DNA of 11,111 nt from an uncultured Planctomycetaceae bacterium (GTDB taxonomy: Bacteria; Planctomycetota; Planctomycetia; Pirellulales; UBA1268). A program made the translations under genes and the position numbers. Below the pieces are notes generated by a model. It worked only from the letters and a program-made list of their open reading frames with translations. It ran no database searches and was not told the DNA's origin. This document shows, in pieces, positions 3,441-7,470 of the stretch. The first letter of the stretch is position 1; each line of letters begins with the position of its first letter. The stretch covers positions 1-11,111 of the forward strand of contig CALAZQ010000487.1 in the NCBI GenBank assembly GCA_937926325.1. The letters run 5' to 3'.

Positions 3441-5069
3441 ATGCGCACGATCGAGATTTACGACACCACATTGCGGGACGGCTCGCAGGGCGAAGGCGTG
3501 AACTTTTCCCTCGAGGACAAGCTGGCCATCGCCCGGCGGCTTGATGAGGCGGGCGTCGATTTCATCGAGGGGGGCTACCCGCTTTCCAACCCGAAGGATG
3601 CTCAGTTCTTCGCCCGTGGCCGTGATCTCGGCCTGCAGCATGCCCGGCTCTGTGCCTTCGGCATGACCCGCCGGCGGGGCATGACGGCGGCGGCCGACCC
3701 CGGCATGCAGGCCTTGCTCGAGGCCGAAACGCCGATTGTGACGATTGTCGGCAAGACCTCGGCGTTCCATGTCGAGACCGTGCTGGGCGTGACCCGTGAA
3801 GAAAACCTGGCGATGATCGCCGACACGGTCGGCTATCTCAGCAGCCAGGGCCGCGAGGTCTTTTATGACGCCGAGCATTTTTTTGATGGCTGGAAGCTGG
3901 ACGCCGACTATTCCCTGCAGACGCTCAAGGCCGCAGCCAAAGCGGGCGCGACGCGACTGGTGCTCTGCGACACCAACGGCGGCACGCTACCGAGTGAGAT
4001 TGACGCGATTCTGCGGGCGGTGGCTGTTGATGTTGCCGTGCCGCTGGCGATCCACTGCCACAACGACTGTGACCTGGCTGTCGCCAACTCGCTGGCGGCC
4101 ATCGCCGCGGGCGCCGTCCAGGTGCAGGGCACGATTAACGGCATCGGTGAGCGGTGTGGCAATGCCGATCTGATTTCGGTGGCGGCAAACCTGGCCCTCA
4201 AGCTCAGCGACTACACCGTCCTGGTCGGGGCAGCTGGTGGCACCAGTGGGGTGGCCCACCTGACCGAACTCTCGCGGTTTGTCTACGAGACGGCCAACAT
4301 GTCGTACCGACCCGGCCAGCCGTTTGTCGGGGCGAGTGCCTTTGCTCACAAGGGTGGTATGCACGTCCATGCAGTGGCCAAGGCGACCGAGTCGTATGAG
4401 CACATTCCTCCTGAGGCGGTTGGCAACTCACGACGGATCCTGGTGAGTGAACTCTCGGGCCGGTCGAACATTGCGGCGCTTGTCACCCGGCCCGACGTCA
4501 AGAACGATCGGACCCTGCTCGACCGGGTGCTGGCCGAGGTCTGCCGGCTGGAGAACGAAGGCTGGCAGTTCGAGGCGGCCGGGGCCTCGTTTGACCTGCT
4601 GGTCGATCGCTGTGCCGGCACCTTTCGGCCGCAGTTCACCAAGCTCGCCTACAACGTCGCGGTGGAAAGCCGGGAGGATGCGGGCGACGGCGTTCGCACC
4701 GAGGCGACAGTCAAACTGGCGGTCGGTGCGGAAATTCGGCACGAGGTGGCCGAAGGGGACGGGCCGGTCAATGCCCTCGATGCCGCCCTCCGCAAGGCGC
4801 TTGAGCAGGCCTTTCCCAGCCTCGCGCGGATGCACCTGCTCGACTACAAGGTGCGGGTGATCAATGCCCAGGAAGGCACGGCGGCCAAGGTGCGGGTCTC
4901 AATTGAAAGCACTGACGGCGAGCGGGTCTGGGGCACGGTGGGCGTGAGCGAGAACGTGATTGAGGCGAGTTGGCTGGCGCTCGCTGATTCCTTTCACTTT
5001 TTTCTTGGAACGGTTCCTCCACCAGCAGAATCGCCGGCAACAGACGCCCCGGCGGTGGTGTCGTCGTGA
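3441..5069 (+). CDS. cimA: (R)-citramalate synthase
   Basis: Condenses pyruvate with acetyl-CoA to (R)-citramalate, the threonine-independent route to 2-oxobutyrate and isoleucine. The protein has 542 residues, normal for the long CimA form. It opens with the DRE-TIM metallolyase signature YDTTLRDGSQGEGVNFS (Arg12/Asp13), has HCHND at 205-209 whose two His should bind the divalent metal, and GIGERCGNADL with Asn241 as a further ligand. FVGASAFAHKGGMHVHAV and ELSGRSN follow, as in LeuA/CimA proteins. Residues about 409-530 form a LeuA-type regulatory domain (VNALDAALRKAL, DYKVRVI), where isoleucine feedback would act. The short spacing of the motif block and TTLRDGSQG fit CimA rather than 2-isopropylmalate synthase. 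No clear SD precedes the ATG at 3441. Its stop overlaps pdxA. Confidence 0.94.
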   Translation: MRTIEIYDTTLRDGSQGEGVNFSLEDKLAIARRLDEAGVDFIEGGYPLSNPKDAQFFARGRDLGLQHARLCAFGMTRRRGMTAAADPGMQALLEAETPIVTIVGKTSAFHVETVLGVTREENLAMIADTVGYLSSQGREVFYDAEHFFDGWKLDADYSLQTLKAAAKAGATRLVLCDTNGGTLPSEIDAILRAVAVDVAVPLAIHCHNDCDLAVANSLAAIAAGAVQVQGTINGIGERCGNADLISVAANLALKLSDYTVLVGAAGGTSGVAHLTELSRFVYETANMSYRPGQPFVGASAFAHKGGMHVHAVAKATESYEHIPPEAVGNSRRILVSELSGRSNIAALVTRPDVKNDRTLLDRVLAEVCRLENEGWQFEAAGASFDLLVDRCAGTFRPQFTKLAYNVAVESREDAGDGVRTEATVKLAVGAEIRHEVAEGDGPVNALDAALRKALEQAFPSLARMHLLDYKVRVINAQEGTAAKVRVSIESTDGERVWGTVGVSENVIEASWLALADSFHFFLGTVPPPAESPATDAPAVVSS

Positions 5070-6070
5070 GCTCGCAGGCACCGCCACCGCCCCGGCTGGC
5101 CGTGACGATGGGCGACCCGGCTGGCGTTGGCCCCGAGCTTTGTCTGCGGCTGCTGGCTGCGGCCGCGGATGGGCAGTTCAGTGAATGCCTGCCGGTGGTG
5201 TTTGGCAGTGCTACGGTGCTGCAGCAGGTGGCTGACCGGTTGGGGCTGGCATGCCGATTCCCACGGGTGACCGACCCTGCTGCTGCAACGGATGCTGCGG
5301 TCTACGACATCAGCAGTGATGCGCTGGACGCAATTGAGCCGGGGCGGGTTTCGGCAGCGGCTGGTGATGCCGCCTTCCAGTACTGCACGACGGCAATCGA
5401 CGCGGCTCTCGCCGGCACGGTGGCCGGCATTGTCACGGCGCCACTAAACAAAGAGGCCCTGCACGCCGCTGGCCACCACTACCCCGGCCACACCGAGTTG
5501 TTTGCGGAACGGCTGGCGGCCGACTGCAGCTGCATGATGCAGTATGCCGATGATATTGCCTGCAGCTTCGTGACCACCCACGTCGGCTATGCCGAGGTGC
5601 CGGGGCTGCTGACGACTACGCGGATCGGTGAGGTGCTCGACCTGACTGACGCAGGCCTCCGCCGCATTCGGGGCCGGCCGCCGCGGCTGCTGGTCTGCGG
5701 GCTTAATCCGCACGCCGGTGAGCATGGTCTGTTTGGCAATCGCGAGGAAGAACGGCTGATCGCCCCGGCGGTCTCCGCCGCCGTGGCCCGGGGGATCGAC
5801 GCCACCGGCCCGGTGCCCGGCGACACCGCCTTCACGCCCCAGGCCCGCCAGCGGTATGACGCCGTTGTCTGCATGTACCACGATCAGGGCCACATTCCCG
5901 TGAAGATGATTGCTTTCGACCGGGCGGTGAACATCACCCTCGGCCTGCCGGTGCCGAGGACGAGCGTTGACCACGGCACCGCCTTCGACATCGCGTGGCA
6001 GGGCGTCGCCGACCCCGGCAGCCTGTTCGCCGCCGTGCGGCTCGCGGCCAGGCTGACGTGTCAGGGTTGA
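5066..6070 (+). CDS. pdxA: 4-hydroxythreonine-4-phosphate dehydrogenase family (PdxA or PdxA2)
   Basis: NAD-dependent, metal-requiring decarboxylating dehydrogenase; classical PdxA oxidises 4-phosphohydroxy-L-threonine in DXP-dependent vitamin B6 synthesis. The protein has 334 residues, normal length. Motifs: VTMGDPAGVGPE (about 13-24), TAPLNKEAL, YPGHTE with His142, TTHVGY with His172, NPHAGEHGLFG from Asn214, MYHDQGHIPVK with His272, and RTSVDHGTAFDIA. The three His correspond to the family metal ligands. The GTG at 5066 must be the start because the first ATG lies inside the MGDPAG motif; it overlaps the cimA stop as GTGA, so coupling is likely. HDQGHIPVK resembles the PdxA2 (threonate/erythronate 4-phosphate dehydrogenase) wording more than the HDQG-LPVLK of enterobacterial PdxA, so the substrate is uncertain even though the family is secure. 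Confidence 0.9.
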   Translation: MSSQAPPPPRLAVTMGDPAGVGPELCLRLLAAAADGQFSECLPVVFGSATVLQQVADRLGLACRFPRVTDPAAATDAAVYDISSDALDAIEPGRVSAAAGDAAFQYCTTAIDAALAGTVAGIVTAPLNKEALHAAGHHYPGHTELFAERLAADCSCMMQYADDIACSFVTTHVGYAEVPGLLTTTRIGEVLDLTDAGLRRIRGRPPRLLVCGLNPHAGEHGLFGNREEERLIAPAVSAAVARGIDATGPVPGDTAFTPQARQRYDAVVCMYHDQGHIPVKMIAFDRAVNITLGLPVPRTSVDHGTAFDIAWQGVADPGSLFAAVRLAARLTCQG

Positions 6071-6084
6071 TCGGGAGAAGGCGA

Positions 6085-6112
6085 TCACCACGAAGGCACG
6101 AAGAGCACGAAG
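6085..6112 (+). repeat. Left 28-bp inverted repeat arm
   Basis: Arm beginning TCACCACGAAGG, with CACGAAG at 6089-6095, 6097-6103 and 6106-6112. It matches the complement of 6568-6595 at 27 of 28 positions. It starts 14 nt after the pdxA stop, so it may also act as the 5' side of a transcript hairpin. Confidence 0.85.
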
Positions 6113-6156
6113 CGGAGGAAGGGGCGTCGGGGTTCGGTGGTGGGGTGGACAATTTT

Positions 6157-6176
6157 GGAAGCCGCCAGGCGGAAGC
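6157..6176 (+). repeat. Inner inverted segment matching the array unit
   Basis: GGAAGCCGCCAGGCGGAAGC. Its complement shares the outer 8 nt on each side (GCTTCCGC and CGGCTTCC) with the core of every array unit, the last being at 6537-6555. The middle differs. It may be a degenerate inverted copy of the unit core and would let the element fold as a nested hairpin. Confidence 0.5.
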
Positions 6177-6555
6177 CGGCGGACCGGCAGTCGTTGTTCG
6201 CGCGGTGTCAGGAATGCTGCGTGTCCAGTCGCTTCCGCTCCCGGCTTCCTATTCTAAAAAACGTTCGCTGTCGTGAGCCGGCGGACCGGCAGTGGTTGTT
6301 CGCGCGGTGTCAGGAGTGCGGCATGTCCGGTCGCTTCCGCTCCCGGCTTCCTATTCCAAAAAACGTTCGCTGTCGTGAGCCGGCGGACCGGCAGTCGTTG
6401 TTCGCGCGGTGTCGGGAGTGCTGCGTGTCCGGTCGCTTCCGCTCCCGGCTTCCTATTCTAAAAAACGTTCGCTGTCGTGAGCCGGCGGACCGGCAGTGGT
6501 TGTTCGCGCGGTGTCAGGAGTGCGGCATGTCCGGTCGCTTCCGCTCCCGGCTTCC
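6175..6555 (+). repeat. 102-bp tandem repeat, about 3.7 copies, A-B-A-B order
   Basis: Unit starts (GCCGGCGGACCGG) fall at 6175, 6277, 6379 and 6481, exactly 102 bp apart; the last copy matches for 75 bp and then changes into the right flank. Copies 1 and 3 share GCAGTCG and TGCTGCGTG; copies 2 and 4 share GCAGTGG and TGCGGCATG. Copies 2 and 4 are identical over the 75 bp, while 1 and 3 differ at three sites. This points to a 204-bp A-B dimer that was duplicated. Each unit holds GCCGG-CGGA-CCGGC (5-bp stem), an AT-rich TAAAAAACG stretch, and an imperfect palindrome described among the findings. Confidence 0.93.
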
Positions 6556-6567
6556 GGTGAAGAAATC

Positions 6568-6595
6568 CTTCGTGTTCTTCGTGCCTTCGTGGTGA
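6568..6595 (+). repeat. Right 28-bp inverted repeat arm
   Basis: Arm beginning CTTCGTGTTCTTCGTG, with three CTTCGTG heptamers. It is the inverse complement of 6085-6112 except for one T in place of C. It ends 65 nt before the SDR start codon, so the SDR promoter must lie in the array, the arm or the short remaining leader. Confidence 0.85.
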
Positions 6596-6660: not shown

Positions 6661-7470
6661 ATGACCGGCACTGCTTCTTCAACTGCAGCTGATGACGAAA
6701 TTTTCTCACTCACAGGCAAGCGGGCCCTGGTAACGGGCACCAGCCGGGGCCTCGGCTTGCAGATGGCCAAGGCGCTGGCCCGGGCCGGGGCCGATCTCGT
6801 CGTCACCTCGCGGACACTCGAATCACTCAATGAGCCCTGCGGTGAGTTGAAGGCCTTTGGTCGGCAGGTGCTGCCGCTGGCCCTCGATCTGCGAGATGAG
6901 GCCAGCATCCGCGCGGCAGCCGACGCGGCGGGCGATATTGACATTTTGGTCAACAACGGCGGCTGCAACATTCGCAAGCCGGCTCTTGACGTCAGCTGGG
7001 ACGACTGGGACACCATCGTCGATACCAACCTGAAGGGCAGCTTCTTCATGACCCAGGCCGTCGTGCCGGGCATGCTGGCCCGGGGCTGGGGCCGGGTGAT
7101 CATGATCGGTAGTTGCACGAGCCTGTTCGGCTTTCCCGGCCTCGCCCCCTACACCGCCAGCCGTGGCGGCATTCGCCAACTGACGATGAGCCTGGCTTCT
7201 GAATTCGGGCCCCAGGGCGTGACGGTCAACTGCCTGGCGCCGGGATGGTTCCGGACTGCCCAGAACGACGTGCTCTACCGTGATGCCGACTGGCTTGAGT
7301 CAATCGTCTCGCGGACGCCACTGCGGCGGCCGGGGCGGGCCGACGACCTTGACGGGGCGGTGGTCTTCCTCGCCTCGGAGGCCAGCCGGTTTGTCACCGG
7401 TCAGACCCTGATGGTCGATGGCGGTTTCACGACCGGTGAAACCCGGGCCCTGCCGACCAGCCAGAGCTGA
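6661..7470 (+). CDS. Short-chain dehydrogenase/reductase with YxxxR in place of YxxxK
   Basis: A 269-residue classical-type SDR, an NAD(P)-dependent oxidoreductase that would act in the cytoplasm, close in general wording to gluconate 5-dehydrogenase/glucose dehydrogenase-like members (FSLTGKRALVTGTSRGLG at the start). The cofactor loop TGTSRGLG is at residues 25-32, NNGG at 98-101, the catalytic Ser at 151 (GSCTS) and Tyr at 164, and the C-terminal block FLASEASRFVTGQTLMVDGG is present. The usual catalytic Lys four residues after Tyr is Arg168 (codon CGT) in YTASRGG. Length and all other motifs are normal. The start is the SD-preceded ATG. The open frame reaches back into the repeat, but those residues are not SDR-like. 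It converges on the PPK2 gene. The substrate is not predictable. Confidence 0.9.
   Translation: MTGTASSTAADDEIFSLTGKRALVTGTSRGLGLQMAKALARAGADLVVTSRTLESLNEPCGELKAFGRQVLPLALDLRDEASIRAAADAAGDIDILVNNGGCNIRKPALDVSWDDWDTIVDTNLKGSFFMTQAVVPGMLARGWGRVIMIGSCTSLFGFPGLAPYTASRGGIRQLTMSLASEFGPQGVTVNCLAPGWFRTAQNDVLYRDADWLESIVSRTPLRRPGRADDLDGAVVFLASEASRFVTGQTLMVDGGFTTGETRALPTSQS

Follow-up and report, generated by a model that had tools for sequence, protein, structure and literature searches.

Judged by its anatomy, the 511-bp inverted-repeat element between pdxA and an SDR gene in an uncultured Planctomycetaceae bacterium is a gene-less relative, and not a gene-bearing member, of the cassettes that enclose GxxExxY genes. 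The best explanation found, to which we give about an even chance, is that the element is a gene-less, cargo-swapped member of a nuclease-linked, heptamer-armed cassette family, moved by a mechanism that we infer below. The whole stretch of DNA that was analysed, 11,111 nucleotides in length, is referred to here as the window; the features of the element and its neighbours are collected in Table 1.

Table 1. Features of the inverted-repeat element and the genes on either side (positions in the window)
Feature	Position	Strand	Remarks
Left neighbour, pdxA	5066..6070	+	
Left arm	6085..6112	+	outer TCAC and three CACGAAG: 6089-6095, 6097-6103, 6106-6112
Spacer, left arm to array	6113..6173	.	contains start of inner imperfect inverted pair (from 6169)
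Open frame, 152 aa	6137..6595	+	spans array and right arm; not considered a gene
Tandem array	6174..6555	.	102-bp unit x 3.7, 94% matches; copies alternate in type
27-nt core GTCC(A/G)GTCGCTTCCGCTCCCGGCTTCC, first copy	6223..6249	.	further copies 6325-6351, 6427-6453, 6529-6555
Right arm	6568..6595	+	three CTTCGTG: 6568-6574, 6577-6583, 6585-6591; and outer GTGA
Right neighbour, SDR gene	6661..7470	+	

The sequence-only reading had described two paired 28-nt arms, each consisting of three CACGAAG heptamers. This description holds: the arms are complementary at 27 of 28 positions (96%) and spaced 455 nt apart, the heptamers can be read from the sequence in both, and the sole mismatch, a left-arm G opposite a right-arm T, would be a G-U pair in plus-strand RNA, as had been stated. 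The arms are not the work of chance, because both the heptamer-pair count and the length of the perfect arm exceed those of shuffled sequences. Two CACGAAG heptamers 2 nt apart, with at most 2 mismatches, are found three times in the window and never three times in 200 dinucleotide shuffles; the longest perfect inverted arm within 700 bp is 20 nt, compared with at most 15 nt in 100 shuffles. The window arms terminate in TCACC...GGTGA, as do the ends of a cassette of Bacteroides finegoldii (TTCACC...GGTGAA). No target duplication is visible by eye in the flanks of the element, in line with the earlier remark that a clear one is lacking.

Most of the interior is made up of a tandem array, which was absent from the earlier description. 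Copies 1 and 3 of the array are alike, as are copies 2 and 4, pointing to a probable duplication of a 204-bp pair. A nested inner inverted pair had also been claimed; it exists, but it is imperfect, with 73-81% complementarity. The open frame of 152 aa is, we think, a by-product of the period of the array (102 = 3 x 34), and a Pfam search with it returned no family at cut-off. The earlier claim that no transposase gene is present is borne out by Pfam for this frame, the only ORF so checked. No match to a GxxExxY gene was found anywhere in the window.

Arms of this kind are common around genes of the GxxExxY family (TIGR04256 / PF13366, PDDEXK_3). PF13366 genes were present in 96 of 199 planctomycete genomes, with up to 15 per genome. 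The 100 loci analysed (30 from this genome search, 40 more from the high-scoring part of its list, and 30 from a further search) contained 104 distinct gene matches, one broken gene being counted twice, and 96 of these had sufficient flank. The gene lay within an inverted pair scoring 28 bits or more in 83 of the 96, which amounts to 81 distinct arm pairs. Of 300 random windows taken from other planctomycete genomes (L001-L080), 2 gave a pair in the same test, and of 28 ParE genes from the same phylum none did. GxxExxY arms consist of tandem heptamers, about three per arm, mostly with 8-10-nt spacing, and the unit varies by locus (CACAGAG, CACGGAG, CACGAAG, CGCCAAG, CGCAGAT and others). The heptamer types of the left and right arms agree in 60 of 73 pairs (shuffle mean 5.5), an agreement that is partly built in because the arms were found by complementarity. 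The arms of the window follow the same design, facing each other with about three tandem heptamers at 8-10-nt spacing, and their CACGAAG heptamer is also present in gene-bearing members, where it occurs in both arms of 6 of the 81 pairs and in either arm of 7.

In GxxExxY proteins, the residues E, D, ExK and QxxxY are kept in 98-100% of 49 sequences. The protein has the residues expected of a PD-(D/E)XK nuclease and is predicted to be one. A PDB sequence search with an alignment of 8 GxxExxY proteins gave nothing significant; the best E value was 0.096, and that of a Cas4-family chain was 0.34. In the accessible text of the few open papers naming it, GxxExxY is a family name without described function. 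The design of the arms suggests that their partner is this predicted nuclease and not a transposase.

Outside Planctomycetota, arms were observed at 4 of 9 GxxExxY loci in named records, belonging to Bacteroides, Gemmatirosa, Sphingomonas and Bernardetia. A short pair was seen in Treponema, and the loci of Persicobacter, Prevotella and a halovirus had no arms. A GxxExxY gene on a Fusobacteria plasmid (L431) is flanked by the direct repeat GATTTAATCCGTGTACCTAT, not by an inverted one. On plasmids, the family was found in 8 of 72,556 records, and among phages in 2 records of one virus; a search of viral contigs, reaching close relatives only, found none.

At two loci, in Bacteroides and Sphingomonas, comparison of intergenic gaps showed that the arms mark the edges of DNA that is absent from relatives. 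The gap of 478 bp between radA and an FAD gene in Bacteroides finegoldii consists of one G, the cassette TTCACC...GGTGAA, and AAAAT, with no obvious target duplication. The radA-side gap measures 13 bp in Parabacteroides and contains about 690 bp of unrelated DNA in Phocaeicola. In Sphingomonas parapaucimobilis, the fabD/fabG gap with the cassette is 464 bp long, and the corresponding gaps of S. paeninsulae and of a Rhizobium measure 32 bp and 30 bp, respectively. Gain of the cassettes, rather than their loss, can only be inferred from these gaps, because the compared relatives are not close.

Within a single genus, alignment of orthologous sites shows that content differs between conserved arms. 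When a GxxExxY locus of genome G530 (L369) was used as query in this genus (G358, G530, G531, G532), both arms recurred at dozens of sites; the remaining matches among those listed were to its ortholog in G358, to a single paralogous gene and, over part of the flank, to G532. Eight of the nine arm-matched G530 loci examined have no room for a GxxExxY gene. The arm pair of L282 in the same genome encloses a gene that matches GxxExxY / PDDEXK_3 (E 5e-43 and 4e-41).

Site comparison among G358, G530 and G531 yielded 19 pairs. Content was alignable above all 200 shuffles in 9 of them and not in 10. In sixteen pairs, representing 14 sites, each flank matches over more than 400 bp, and of these pairs 6 are alignable in content and 10 are not. 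The remaining three (L220/L521, L218/L520 and L479/L523), which have short or single flanks, are all alignable. Among the 10 non-alignable pairs, 7 have at least 66 nt of content on both sides, with flanks 78-94% identical; in the other three the contents are shorter than 50 nt, so that the comparison has little power. The clearest swap is that between L476 in G358 and the orthologous L518 in G531, in which the flanks are 94% and 84% identical and the contents, 653 versus 293 nt, are unrelated. The heptamer-armed stretch of L518 (630-972) has an 82-aa frame with a sub-threshold match to DUF4926. Inversion of the content between the arms was considered and rejected, since none of the 9 alignable pairs among the 19 aligned better inverted than forward. 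At one further site, an arm pair is present in G358 and G531 and absent in G530; this site was rejected as a clean insertion junction, the intergenic DNA of G530 being unrelated.

The paired arms of G358, G530 and G531 enclose 64 distinct contents. Only two within-genome pairs match over nearly the whole length, L275/L516 in G531 (110 bp, 92%) and L482/L483 in G358 (132 bp, 82%), and several match in part; L222 and L223 have the same content with the same flanks. One sub-family of this genus (L220, L278, L516 and L521) has a common content of about 110 nt with 87-93% identity, is represented at least twice in G531, and is also alike over 50-100 bp outside the arms where these were compared. 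This sub-family looks as if it had been copied as a whole unit. Going by such matches, a minority of the arm-bounded copies appear to have been copied in this way.

The element as a whole was not recovered in relatives of the window. As a query, its 511 bp matched in 20 of 146 relatives, the best candidates being scored up to four per genome, and no full-length match was among those scored. The partial matches fall on the arms, some extending slightly beyond, or on interior pieces, and none spans arms and interior together. In near relatives such as G403, pieces of the interior lie scattered between genes, above all the 27-nt core GTCCGGTCGCTTCCGCTCCCGGCTTCC, and variants were found in G401, G003 and G443. 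The strict three-heptamer CACGAAG pattern occurred in 9 of 392 planctomycete genomes (0 for the reversed control) and, among viral contigs, in 22 stretches. With the two-heptamer pattern, 294 matches were obtained in 11 of 15 genomes, compared with 2 for the reversed control, the 15 genomes having been picked mostly because matches were already present. Judging from these matches, the CACGAAG arms and the interior core are dispersed independently of each other.

A planctomycete assembly of 5 Mb (G220) contained 104 heptamer-pair matches, many of them as tight hairpins. Facing arms were present at 14 of the 20 loci read there, which were partly chosen for showing pairs, and 17 distinct contents of 5-34 nt lay between arms. 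Some contigs of this assembly end at or close to heptamer-pair matches (L196-L215). Another palindromic repeat is located between the arms in L081 and L091 (by eye), as in the window. One viral contig (L086 and L097) carries eight arms, several of which are followed by a similar stretch (GGGACGGG ... CCCCCGGTGA). Between genes of the near relative G003 lie further composite repeats, both tandem and inverted, around the motifs GGACTCCGGG and CTTCCGC (L158, L159).

The neighbouring CimA protein has its best relatives in uncultured Planctomycetota, with 86% identity in L001. In three near relatives (L001, L002 and L128), a different gene, which by eye resembles a transporter, comes after pdxA, and no heptamer arms were found within the 260 bp examined behind pdxA. 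The SDR gene of relatives is located elsewhere, mostly behind the apparent 3' end of a dehydrogenase gene (by eye). The element therefore lies at a synteny break. An empty site at the pdxA/SDR junction, which had been proposed as a check, was not found in relatives, where pdxA and SDR are not adjacent. Between 6070 and 8560 the window contains the SDR gene and a further gene, PPK2-like by eye, at the place where a different gene follows pdxA in the three near relatives.

In the explanation that we prefer, gene-bearing cassettes carry one small gene, most clearly that of the predicted GxxExxY (PDDEXK_3) nuclease, and gene-less cassettes hold other filler, which in the window is the 102-bp array related to a dispersed repeat of planctomycete relatives. 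The nuclease, supplied in trans from a gene-bearing copy, would recognise or cut the heptamer arms, which may be extruded as a hairpin when this happens. Repair against another copy with matching arms would then replace the content between the arms. Cargo, including the nuclease gene, could thereby move between existing arm pairs, and gene-less copies would stay on as passengers or relics. On this view the nuclease would act on the arms, and the window copy may once have been moved by it.

Several observations speak against the link with the nuclease. A GxxExxY gene was found at none of the 36 loci picked out by their CACGAAG arms (22 from viral contigs and 14 from genomes), and PF13366 was found in 0 of 7 near relatives (G001-G004, G401, G403 and G443). 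Among the 11 genomes in which CACGAAG pairs occur, three gave no match to PF13366: G293, with 24 pattern matches in about 4.3 Mb, G489 with 8, and G403 with 4. The assembly G220 has three PF13366 pieces, and only L373 has clear arms, which are CGCGAAG/CGCAAAG and not CACGAAG. Arms of the CACGAAG type may form an ancient branch that is for the most part without the gene, or they may be spread in a different manner. Because of G293, G489 and G403, and because some sub-families have an interior in common, we hold the nuclease-linked explanation slightly less firmly, and take an origin as a MITE slightly more seriously, than would otherwise be the case.

The sequence-only reading had proposed a non-autonomous mobile element or a large structured RNA. 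The former is right in outline, in that the arms recur in other genomes, one pair is present or absent within a genus, and arms bound inserted cassettes; a plain MITE family fits poorly, because most copies have no common interior, although a few sub-families do. It is unlikely that the element is an internally deleted transposon of this type, moved by a DDE transposase recognising the arms. The 28-bp inverted ends, the lack of a gene, the dispersed copies and the few sub-families with a common interior (L275/L516 and L482/L483) would all suit such an origin, but the two near-whole-length pairs among 64 contents leave most contents unshared, no target duplication is visible, and it is with the family of a predicted nuclease that the arm design is associated. 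A candidate for the autonomous transposon, the 4.8-kb spaced arm pair of L221 and the one wide pair examined, was rejected: it encloses trkA/trkH-like genes (by eye), and it is not one element, its right arm having its own partner, so that two separate copies are present. Quite improbable, in our estimate, is a REP/REPIN palindrome moved by a RAYT (Y1 transposase), in which the outer arms and the inner repeat would be two nested REP-like families. REPs have been reported in Planctomycetes (PMC3733652), the element is intergenic and dispersed, inspection of L081 and L091 by eye likewise shows nested palindromes, and the inner 27-nt core recurs in relatives. Arms built of tandem heptamers, with contents between them that range from 5 to 653 nt, argue against this origin, as does the accessible main text of PMC3733652, from which the heptamer string is absent.

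Transposition may also be dispensed with altogether, if slippage lengthens the heptamer arrays and template switching inverts them, the pair then being a by-product of replication. Variation of heptamer number in orthologous arms (4 versus 6 in L266/L267) and the array of the window, itself a tandem expansion, are consistent with this idea; it has little probability in our view, for it leaves unexplained why 83 of 96 GxxExxY genes are located between such arms, why arms edge inserted cassettes, and why orthologous sites hold unrelated content. An RNA function at the 3' end of pdxA, whether as a structured RNA, as a terminator or as a hairpin that stabilises the mRNA, would agree with the location behind a gene and with the folding of the whole element, which is better than that of shuffles when folded as DNA (z -3.9), as its long arms lead one to expect. 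The 102-nt unit, however, folds as DNA no better than shuffles on the two strands (z -0.02 and -0.63), Rfam gave 0 matches at gathering score, contents vary between copies, and the arm mismatches of 81 gene-bearing relatives have no sense-strand bias toward G-U wobble (88 versus 98). A large structured RNA was thus not upheld, and this group of explanations is very improbable.

Among published systems, the nearest likeness found is with the S23-bearing intervening sequences (IVS) of 23S rRNA, as these are described in the accessible parts of the literature. No description of heptamer arms was found in the open literature, subscription papers and preprints being outside the scope of the search, and six 15-16-mers of the arms occurred in an open-literature text search only in a paper on fish environmental DNA. 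According to the accessible text on Coxiella (PMC4990558), the IVS lies within 23S rRNA, from which RNase III excises it, has a 28-bp terminal stem with one mismatch and a bulge, and contains tandem heptamers of variable number before the gene. The S23/IVP intervening sequences (PF05635), as far as they are described there, share with the cassettes a small gene between terminal inverted repeats. The window element differs from them in that it is intergenic (pdxA/SDR), is gene-less, has no Rfam match, and has an ORF with no Pfam family above cut-off. Planctomycete PF05635 genes (L386-L415) were observed between tandem-unit inverted arms with a period of about 7 (TTAGTTG, AGGGGTT and others) at 23 of 26 loci. 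One architecture used with several proteins (GxxExxY and PF05635) is suggested.

A wider proposal, which we advance with somewhat less than even confidence, is that tandem-unit inverted arms define an unnamed class of bacterial mobile cassettes. In this class, a small dedicated protein would act on its own arm code (the GxxExxY nuclease on a period of 8-10 nt, the S23 four-helix protein on a period of 7), and homologous arm pairs at scattered places in the genome would exchange their cargo; the window would then hold a cargo-swapped, gene-less copy with the array of another repeat family. If GxxExxY genes are the cores of heptamer-armed cassettes, their role becomes immediately testable: the arms would be the expected targets of binding or cutting, and the heptamers, which vary over many loci, would amount to a naturally occurring code of protein-DNA recognition. 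A class of intergenic inverted repeats in planctomycete genomes would be explained as well, and a transposase-free route would be suggested by which small cargo spreads and is exchanged.

The element may finally be set beside the systems that resemble it. With the GxxExxY cassettes it shares tandem-heptamer inverted arms, which in some of them are also of the CACGAAG type and in Bacteroides have the outer TTCACC/GGTGAA; it differs in that it has no such gene. REP/REPIN elements, which are associated with RAYT, are dispersed, intergenic, non-autonomous palindromes. Window-type elements are likewise dispersed, intergenic and palindromic, but differ in arm design, length and variable content. MITEs have inverted ends and no transposase gene, and are shorter than 600 bp. 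The window element has inverted ends, falls below the same length, and has no transposase found by Pfam in the 152-aa frame; it differs in an interior mostly unshared among copies and in that no target duplication was seen. In homing endonuclease elements, a small nuclease gene spreads into matching sites by repair, and spread of this kind would account for the replacement of content between conserved arms. Unlike those elements, the cassettes have many dispersed sites rather than one, their arms are repeats, and their nuclease is a predicted one.
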